From: Bacteroidota bacterium
Lineage (GTDB): Bacteria > Bacteroidota > Ignavibacteria > UBA10030 > UBA8401
Length of the DNA: 37,389 bases
Direction of reading: 5' to 3'
Assembly: GCA_008933835.1 (NCBI GenBank)
Contig: WBUG01000032.1
Span: forward strand, 1 to 37,389
The translations under genes and the position numbers were made by a program. Numbering within the stretch: position 1 is the first letter of the stretch; the number at the start of each line of letters is the position of its first letter. The notes under the pieces are model-generated. The model had not been told where the DNA came from. It did not search any database and was given only the letters and a program-made list of their open reading frames with translations. This document shows positions 16,644 to 19,030 of this stretch, piece after piece.

Positions 16644-17057
16644 CTACCTCTTCCTCCACTCCGTCTCCACCGTCATCGCGATGCCGCCGCGGACGGCGTA
16701 CGCCGCCGTCACACGGCACCGTCGCGGCTTCAGCGCCGCAACGAGATCGTCGAGGATGACGTTCACCGCATGCTCGTAGAAGGTCTCCTCGTTGCGGAAG
16801 CTCTGCAGGTAGAGTTTGAAGGACTTCGATTCGACGATATGCCGGTCCGGAACGTACTCGACCGTCAGCGTCGCGAAATCGGGCTGGCGGTTCACCGGAC
16901 CGAGCGTGGTGAACTCGTCCGTGACGAGGGTGATGACCGTGTCGCGGCCGCGGTGGTGGTTGGGGAAGGTCTCGAGCGTGCGGCCGGGAGCGGCGGCGCG
17001 GCCGAGCTTCGTCAGGCGGAGCGTGTCTGTCGGTGTGGTGAGCCGTTTCGCCGTCAC
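16644..17057 (-). CDS. QueF-like protein lacking the catalytic Cys and His
   Basis: A 137-residue protein of the short (YkvM) preQ0 reductase family: LETFPNHHRGRDTVITL, RQPDF, VESKSFKLYLQSFRN and PRGG-like RGGIAM blocks are all in order. QueF reduces the nitrile of preQ0 to preQ1 in queuosine synthesis through a thioimide on a conserved cysteine. Here that position reads FTTLGPVNRQPDF, with Gly (GGT codon) where FTSLCP is expected. The active-site HE pair reads YE, while the Asp of QPDF and the Glu are kept. It is therefore unlikely to be a normal reductase; a changed function or decayed paralogue is inferred. The GTG start overlaps the stop of the aldo/keto reductase gene (GTGA). It is the last gene of a long co-directional run. 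Confidence 0.8.
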   Translation of the reverse strand: MTAKRLTTPTDTLRLTKLGRAAAPGRTLETFPNHHRGRDTVITLVTDEFTTLGPVNRQPDFATLTVEYVPDRHIVESKSFKLYLQSFRNEETFYEHAVNVILDDLVAALKPRRCRVTAAYAVRGGIAMTVETEWRKR

Positions 17058-18088
17058 CGGACGTCCCGGTGGTTGCGCAGGCGGTCGTGCGTGCCGGCGT
17101 AGACGATGTTCGTGATCGGCTTTGAGTTCAGGAAGTCGTACGGAAATCCCATGTCCACCCTGCTCACCGCGTCCAACCGTTTCAGATGTTCCTCGCCGAG
17201 CGAGACCGAGAGCGAACCGAGATTGTCCTCGATCTGCGCCGCTTTCGTCCCGCCGATGATGGGGATGATGTTCCCCTTCTGCTGCCGCAGCCACGCCAGC
17301 GCCACCTGTGCGGGCGTCACGCCGAACTCCTTCGCCACCGCCGCCGTCTCCGCCGCGATGCCCAGGTTCCGTTCGCTCAGCCGTCCGCTCCCCTCCTTCA
17401 GCCGCACCGCCTCCGGCACTCCACCGGCGAACTTCCCGGTGAGCACGCCGGCGCCGAGCGGGGACCAGGCGAGCACCGCCATATCGAACGCCCGCGCGAG
17501 CGGGAGCAGTTCCCGTTCCACCGTCCGCTGCACCAGACTGTACTCGATCTGCAGCCCCACGAACTGCGTCCATCCGCGCAGTTCGGCGATGGTGTTCATC
17601 TGCGACACGATCCAGGCGGGCGTGTCGGAGACGCCGATGTAGAGCACCTTCCCCTGCCGCACCGCGTCGTCCAGGGCCCGCAGCACCTCCTCCGCCGGTG
17701 TGGTGTAGTCCCACGCATGGAGCCAGTAGACGTCGATGTAATCGGTCTTGAGCCGTTTCAGGCTGTGGTTGAGCGACTGCATCATGTTCTTGCGGTGGTT
17801 CCCGCTCCAGTTCGGGTCGCCGTCCTTCATCTTGAGCGTGTACTTGGTCGCCAGCACGATGCTCTCGCGGTCGTGCGCGATGAGCTCGCCGACGATGCGT
17901 TCCGACGTCCCTTCGGTGTACCGGTTGGCGGTGTCGATGAAGTTCCCTCCCGCGGCGCGGTACAGGTCGTACATCCGCCGGCACTCCTCCTTCGACGCCC
18001 CCCATCCCCATTCTTCGCCGAAGGTCATGGTGCCGAGCGACAGTTCCGAAACGCGCAGGCCCGAGCGGCCGAGCAGTCGATAGTTCAT
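17054..18088 (-). CDS. Aldo/keto reductase
   Basis: A 344-residue NADPH-dependent oxidoreductase of the aldo/keto reductase superfamily. The catalytic tetrad is present: D52 (FIDTANRY), Y57, K82 (LATKY) and H124 (YWLHAWD). The cofactor-binding C-terminal region includes LAWSPLGAGVLTGKF and IIPIIGGTKAAQIEDNL. The sequence resembles the AKR11/YajO-like group that reduces small aldehydes and ketones; the substrate is not readable. GGAGA upstream supports the ATG at 18088. It lies 39 bases after the hydrolase gene and overlaps the QueF-like gene, so the three are probably cotranscribed. Confidence 0.92.
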   Translation of the reverse strand: MNYRLLGRSGLRVSELSLGTMTFGEEWGWGASKEECRRMYDLYRAAGGNFIDTANRYTEGTSERIVGELIAHDRESIVLATKYTLKMKDGDPNWSGNHRKNMMQSLNHSLKRLKTDYIDVYWLHAWDYTTPAEEVLRALDDAVRQGKVLYIGVSDTPAWIVSQMNTIAELRGWTQFVGLQIEYSLVQRTVERELLPLARAFDMAVLAWSPLGAGVLTGKFAGGVPEAVRLKEGSGRLSERNLGIAAETAAVAKEFGVTPAQVALAWLRQQKGNIIPIIGGTKAAQIEDNLGSLSVSLGEEHLKRLDAVSRVDMGFPYDFLNSKPITNIVYAGTHDRLRNHRDVR

Positions 18089-18127: not shown

Positions 18128-19030
18128 CTAGCGGTGCGGGAGGGGTCGCAGCGTACTGGTCGAGAGAAAATCGCGAAATTGGTCCTGAGTTGCAATCACG
18201 TCGTTGTGTCCGAGCGCGGTGTGGATGAAGAGGAGCCGGTTCCCCCGCAGCACGGCCGGCGTGAGGGCGGTGTCCTCCGTGCGGCGGTACGGGATCTTCC
18301 ACGCGTCCAGGTCCGCCATCAGGTTCTCCGTCTCCCCCTTCGTCCCGCCGCTGTCGGTATAGACGGCGACGAAGCGGCCTTTGTAATGGTCCAGCCAGTA
18401 CGCGTACTTCTCCGTCTGCCCGTACAACGCGTCGAAGAGGATGACGTCCGAGATGTACGGCGTCATGCCGCCGCGGAGGAGCATGAAGGCGATGGCGCGG
18501 TAGGCGCCGCTGTGTCCGGCGAGCACGATGCGGCCGATGCGGGCGTGCGTGATGAGCTTCCGTTCCTTGAGATGTCGGAAGACGTCCGCCACGAGCTCCT
18601 TCAGACCGTCGGCCTCCTCCAGCTTCCCGCCGAAGGAATCGGGGGCGTGCTTCGGGCCTTCGGGAAAGACGAAGATGGCGTTCTTCTTCGCGCCGGCGAA
18701 CTGTTGGATGAGCCGGAACTGCGCGCAGGCGCTGTCCACCGAGTTGTACCAACCGTGCAGATAGAGGACGATGTCCACCGTCTCATGCGGAACGTATCCC
18801 TTCGGCACGACGATGAGCACGGTGCTGTCCGAATAGTGCCGTTCGGCGGGGAACACCGTTCCGCCGTACGTATGACCGGCGGCGCGCTTGGGGTGCGGGA
18901 ACGGGGCGGAGGCGAACTGCGGCGTGAGCACGGTGCCGAACGGAGCGTACCGCTCGGTGAGCGGCTGGGCGGCGAGGGTCGACATCGCTCCGGTGAAGAG
19001 CAGGGCGGTGACGAGGATACGGACGTTCAT
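18128..19030 (-). CDS. Secreted alpha/beta-hydrolase-fold protein
   Basis: A 300-residue protein with a signal peptide (to about LAAQP, residue 22). The alpha/beta-hydrolase core has a YLHGW oxyanion segment at 90-94, the nucleophile elbow AGHSGAY with Ser near 174, and a late histidine in HTALGHND (about 275-282). The elbow GHSGA departs from the canonical GxSxG. It could be a periplasmic esterase or peptidase, but no specific substrate is evident. GGAG stands five bases upstream of the ATG. It follows the GT4 gene by 34 bases in the same orientation. Confidence 0.75.
   Translation of the reverse strand: MNVRILVTALLFTGAMSTLAAQPLTERYAPFGTVLTPQFASAPFPHPKRAAGHTYGGTVFPAERHYSDSTVLIVVPKGYVPHETVDIVLYLHGWYNSVDSACAQFRLIQQFAGAKKNAIFVFPEGPKHAPDSFGGKLEEADGLKELVADVFRHLKERKLITHARIGRIVLAGHSGAYRAIAFMLLRGGMTPYISDVILFDALYGQTEKYAYWLDHYKGRFVAVYTDSGGTKGETENLMADLDAWKIPYRRTEDTALTPAVLRGNRLLFIHTALGHNDVIATQDQFRDFLSTSTLRPLPHR

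Follow-up and report, generated by a model that had tools for sequence, protein, structure and literature searches.

What does a QueF homologue do once it has lost the cysteine on which QueF chemistry depends? This question is raised by a small gene on the 37,389-nucleotide contig WBUG01000032.1 of a Bacteroidota bacterium of the class Ignavibacteria, the whole of which we refer to as the window. We use QueF* as a label for the Cys-less QueF-like protein of the window and of its clade (see below). Codons are counted from the GTG at 17057. The relevant features are as follows.

16644..17057, minus strand: QueF*, QueF-like protein without the thioimide Cys, 137 amino acids, GTG start
17054..18088, minus strand: aldo/keto reductase (AKR, PF00248, from Pfam), upstream of QueF* with a 4-base overlap
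16905..16907, minus strand: codon 51, Thr (Thr or Ser in the clade), the alternative disulfide-partner position of the catalytic Cys
16887..16901, minus strand: active-site loop GPVNR, codons 53-57 (CPxTG in Cys-bearing QueFs), from the alignment
16878..16880, minus strand: codon 60, Asp, the general acid/base position, kept and aligned with Asp62
16809..16832, minus strand: QueF motif ESKSFKLY, codons 76-83, NADPH-binding and kept, from the alignment
16773..16778, minus strand: codons 94-95, Tyr-Glu, with Tyr94 at the variable His96 and Glu95 at the invariant, base-anchoring Glu97

QueF* matches the Pfam QueF family PF14489 with an E-value of 1.1e-30 (106 bits, cut-off 27.3) and NCBIfam TIGR03139 (QueF-II) with 141.1 bits (cut-off 86.9), and so passes the curated score for a preQ1 synthase. 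Among PDB chains, it matches B. subtilis QueF (6.9e-27) and the C55A mutant of this enzyme (2.6e-27), the identity to B. subtilis QueF being ~45% across the aligned region of these solved structures. An AlphaFold2 model built from 54 sequences (pLDDT 91, pTM 0.87) has as its top Foldseek matches in the PDB first 4fgc, B. subtilis QueF C55A with bound preQ0, and then the wild type 4f8b; the model superposes on 4fgc with an rmsd of 0.9 over 108 columns. Judging from its sequence and predicted fold, the window protein is a unimodular QueF homologue, and the fold-defining blocks are intact, as a first, sequence-only reading of this DNA had proposed. The coupled start described there is present as well: the GTG of QueF* shares four bases (GTGA) with the TGA stop of the upstream AKR.

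Other T-fold proteins are more distant. GTP cyclohydrolase I (FolE) gives a fold match with an E-value of ~1e-6 at 16% identity, and the window genome has its own FolE. Dihydroneopterin aldolase (FolB), also a T-fold protein, belongs to the same superfamily as QueF*. QueF* does not replace FolB, since a separate FolB is present in the window genome and nearly all relatives. A role in place of dihydrofolate reductase was likewise discarded, as this enzyme was found in 20 of 20 genomes tested (weakly in G009). The QueF-Like archaeosine synthase (QueF-L, PDB 5jyx) employs the QueF fold in another chemistry; its TM-score with QueF* is 0.66 by query length and its identity 24%. QueF-L keeps its cysteine (Cys21) and forms a thioimide (PMC5485725), whereas QueF* has Gly at the position aligned with Cys21.

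A closer inspection of the active site confirmed that the catalytic cysteine is replaced: Gly53 of QueF* aligns with the thioimide Cys55 of B. subtilis QueF. A second cysteine is missing as well. Codon 51 corresponds by position to B. subtilis residue 53, the alternative partner in a disulfide that shields the catalytic Cys (PMC5372742); among the 75 nearest Cys-bearing QueFs, 73 have Cys in this column, and the clade has Thr or Ser. That both cysteines are gone is as expected if the reactive Cys has ceased to function. The NADPH-binding QueF motif, defined as E(S/L)K(S/A)hK(L/Y)(Y/F/W) (PMC5372742), is invariant across the clade in our alignment, as are Glu95 and Asp60. In comparison with the unimodular B. 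subtilis enzyme, QueF* is thus alike in family score, predicted fold, Glu, Asp and NADPH motif, but differs by the absence of the thioimide Cys and its partner, by GPVNR in place of CPxTG, by Glu91 in place of Gly, by Tyr94 and by its place outside a queuosine operon. The exchange of the active-site His for Tyr had been noted before and is present; its reading as a sign of lost function, however, is not supported. Genomic QueFs with the Cys have H, N, Q or Y at the His position, and viral ones frequently have C or A, so Tyr94 alone does not signal lost activity. One QueF that retains its Cys (L084:6001-6390) carries Tyr here (FYEH), showing that the His can be exchanged while the Cys stays.

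At ten columns, the clade has a fixed or almost fixed residue that is seldom seen among the 75 nearest Cys-bearing QueFs (G53, V55, N56, R57, Q85, E91, T92, Y94, V98 and M128). All ten cluster close to the active site or its helix; columns 25 and 132 passed this filter as well, and Gln85 is not unique to the clade, being frequent in viral Cys-bearing QueFs. Forty-seven columns are conserved to at least 97% in these 75 proteins, of which the window protein keeps 40 and its clade mates 39-41. Five of the seven changes of the window protein at conserved columns (C51, C53, T56, G91 and I128) are common to nearly the whole clade.

We searched 60 related genomes together with GTDB contigs and obtained 101 distinct homologues. 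Gly occupies the Cys position in all ten species found in one lineage of Ignavibacteria-type environmental bacteria, the window's included, whereas each of the 91 remaining genomic homologues has Cys. The ten species read FT[TS]LGP[VI]NRQPDF and ETFYEH; Gly and Tyr are thus conserved as a clade, and close relatives do not uniformly carry Cys and His. In a tree of the 101 homologues, a branch with an SH-aLRT of 100 separates the Gly/Tyr species from all others, pointing to a single origin, and Cys-bearing QueFs of the Syntrophales/Deltaproteobacteria kind surround the clade. A transfer of QueF from such a group into the lineage is likely rather than shown, because the deeper forks of the tree are weakly supported. 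When 395 genomes of the phylum were scanned with a pattern that allowed one form of the motif, no Gly-bearing QueF emerged outside the clade; the pattern matched the window genome, G003 and two chance sites outside QueF frames. No Cys-less QueF was found among the viral homologues either, 23 of 23 keeping the Cys in their translations. Our literature search found no paper linking QueF with Ignavibacteria.

We then asked whether the genomes hold another route to queuosine. No second QueF was found in the window genome, the other PF14489 match (on contig C26) being GTP cyclohydrolase I by translation. QueC and QueE had no real match in any clade genome or in the related genus g2, and the remaining PF06508 matches are short, fall on the N-terminal PP-loop and score close to the cut-off. 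Tgt was found in eight of the ten clade genomes (missing in G016 and G020), with the usual DECxPYP/GGLAVGE form of its motif where read, and QueA in all ten. With Tgt and QueA in place but neither QueC nor QueE found, these organisms must obtain queuosine by salvage. In genus g2, which also lacks queC and queE, the gene of a canonical QueF overlaps that of a full-length queuosine-precursor transporter (TIGR00697, 110 bits; L198:8046-9304); this arrangement is a plain preQ0 salvage operon. The clade genomes have, elsewhere in the genome, a divergent VUT homologue of ~175 amino acids that scores under the TIGR00697 cut-off. It was not found in G009 and is common to the clade and the QueF-less g7 and g8. 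By sequence, this PF02592 protein is a candidate queuosine-precursor transporter. Its genes (L238:7710-8228, L239:7854-8372, L240:2972-3511, L244:7396-7920 and L245:6331-6849, all in queC-less genomes) lie mostly beside isoprenoid, HPr and PTS enzyme I-like genes.

In a QueA tree, a single-gene and hence weak stand-in for the species tree, the Gly species cluster together with G021, a clade genome that is 79% complete and has no QueF match. Their sister is the QueF-less G007 and the next branch is G006, which has the full pathway. G007, representing sister genus g7, has no QueF, QueC or QueE and possesses Tgt, QueA and the short transporter homologue. A gene set without QueF has been read as preQ1 salvage (PMC5372724), and the QueF-less relatives, which have Tgt and QueA, indicate that salvage of preQ1 is enough.

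The adjacent reductase had been suggested to act together with QueF*. Apart from the window genome, only G009, G017 and G018 yielded orthologues of this AKR (72-75% identity), and each adjoins QueF*; the best match in the other 16 genomes reaches at most 38% identity. AKR and QueF* diverge in step, with paired identities of 75/71, 72/68 and 96/96, and are spaced by an overlap (window), 3, 85 and 137 bases. The suggested tie thus stands as a specific physical pairing, but it is not universal: it holds in four of the ten species and is missing in six. Five loci (L033, L034, L036, L040 and L041) carry a membrane protein of ~105 amino acids just downstream of QueF* instead, and L037 has neither gene.

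Taken together, we favor, with a probability of about 0.45, the reading that QueF* is a QueF repurposed in one small lineage, which would bind a (deaza)purine-like base and NADPH and act without a thioimide. In the simplest history, the lineage would have lost de novo synthesis and adopted preQ1 salvage, rendering QueF dispensable, and QueF would then have been lost in g7 and remodelled in g1, g3 and g9. Alternatively, the lineage could have gained QueF once it had separated from g7. The freed protein would have lost nitrile reduction, as we infer from the established thioimide mechanism, and taken another substrate. Glu95 may hold a guanine-, deazaguanine- or pterin-like base and the ESKS motif NADPH, from which hydride could be passed to a C=O or C=N group that is reactive without covalent activation. 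Asp60, and perhaps Tyr94, might serve as proton donor, while the new Asn56, Arg57, Gln85, Glu91 and Thr92 might fit the new substrate; the paired AKR may act on the same metabolite. More tentatively, and well short of even odds, QueF* would add a third chemistry to those of the QueF scaffold, as a Cys-free enzyme that uses NADPH and acts on a purine-, deazapurine- or pterin-like metabolite, paired with the AKR in some species. Several observations count against repurposing, namely the absence of the AKR from six of ten species, the long branch of the window copy (see below) and the lack of a preQ1 riboswitch, none of which reached the gathering score in the nine loci scanned; no other regulatory clue was found there. 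The kept NADPH and acid residues could also be structural only, which would speak against a repurposed reductase.

A binding role, also raised in the sequence-only reading, is the closest competitor, although we consider it rather doubtful. Here, QueF* would be a non-catalytic binder of preQ0 or preQ1, either a buffer or carrier to Tgt or a sink keeping preQ0 from Tgt. The base-anchoring Glu95 is kept, the organisms depend on salvage, and the Cys-less QueF mutants C55A (B. subtilis) and C194A (V. cholerae) were, by the titles of their PDB entries 4fgc and 3rzp, crystallised with preQ0, so binding of preQ0 is possible without the Cys. However, the NADPH motif and Asp60 are both invariant, although binding alone requires neither; sister genus g7 manages with the same salvage gene set and no QueF*; and no queuosine gene lies beside QueF* in the neighbourhoods read. 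The retention of NADPH motif and Asp60 is what tilts our choice to a non-covalent reductase over a pure binder.

It is unlikely that QueF* still reduces salvaged preQ0 for Tgt by a non-covalent route. This idea draws on QueF* being the sole QueF homologue of genomes that carry Tgt and QueA while lacking QueC and QueE, and on the same gene set accompanying a canonical QueF and the full-length transporter in g2. QueF variants in which the Cys is mutated are inactive, which counts against it, as does the sufficiency of preQ1 salvage in the QueF-less relatives with Tgt and QueA. Moreover, every QueF studied so far, and QueF-L too, has the thioimide Cys (PMC5372742, PMC5485725).

Slightly less probable still is a relic slowly decaying after loss of function, its conservation reflecting fold or oligomer. 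The catalytic Cys was lost along with the upstream pathway, and the window copy has the longest end branch in the clade (0.44). With a GC3 of 0.89, compared to 0.31-0.78 in other clade members, base composition may explain part of this rate, and the long branch may reflect either high GC or weaker constraint. Against decay, the two closest pairs gave dN/dS values of 0.056 (L035/L038) and 0.049 (L033/L034) by NG86 and of ~0.02 and ~0.06, respectively, by YN00, synonymous sites being saturated in more distant pairs. QueF* is under strong purifying selection in the clade. Moreover, it is kept in all ten clade genomes that are at least 80% complete, and the clade-specific residues are fixed in the active site and not scattered. 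The earlier argument that this otherwise well-kept QueF is no case of simple decay is therefore borne out. Finally, a single base separates GGT from TGT, but the idea that the Gly codon arose by an error in sequencing or assembly, or as a private mutation, is refuted by nine further species whose independent assemblies carry Gly while their loop codons otherwise differ, and by seven other positions that changed together with it.

It is very likely that QueF* does a job different from its database assignment. The TIGR03139 assignment of the clade as preQ1 synthase is probably a misannotation, as these proteins pass the model without the nucleophile that the reaction needs. QueF membership serves to predict preQ0-reducing bacteria, and the mode of queuosine salvage of the clade is probably mispredicted by it. 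Furthermore, these genomes provide a natural series, from the full pathway (G006) via no QueF (G007) to the Cys-less QueF* (g1, g3 and g9), in which an enzyme whose pathway step had become dispensable was apparently retained and remodelled, and which makes a gain of function on the T-fold testable.

Several further genes were observed in these genomes. On contig C26 of the window genome (G000) and in L002 and L202, a PTPS-like protein (CSNPNGHGHNY), GTP cyclohydrolase I and short-chain dehydrogenases are clustered, as judged by translations; the cluster is perhaps a tetrahydropterin pathway. The ~105-amino-acid membrane protein has no Pfam match and overlaps the 3' end of QueF* by four bases (L033:6405-6722, L036:6402-6713 and L041:5202-5519). 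In the window, 18128-19030 encodes a probably secreted protein of 300 amino acids with no Pfam match, and genes resembling it lie upstream of QueF* in L033, L034, L036, L040 and L041, with a weak esterase match in L033. A gene for a 23S rRNA intervening-sequence protein (PF05635, 15672-16034 of the window) is located between pta and a Cupin_5 gene, and genes of the PF05635 type are also close by in L033, L037 and L039.
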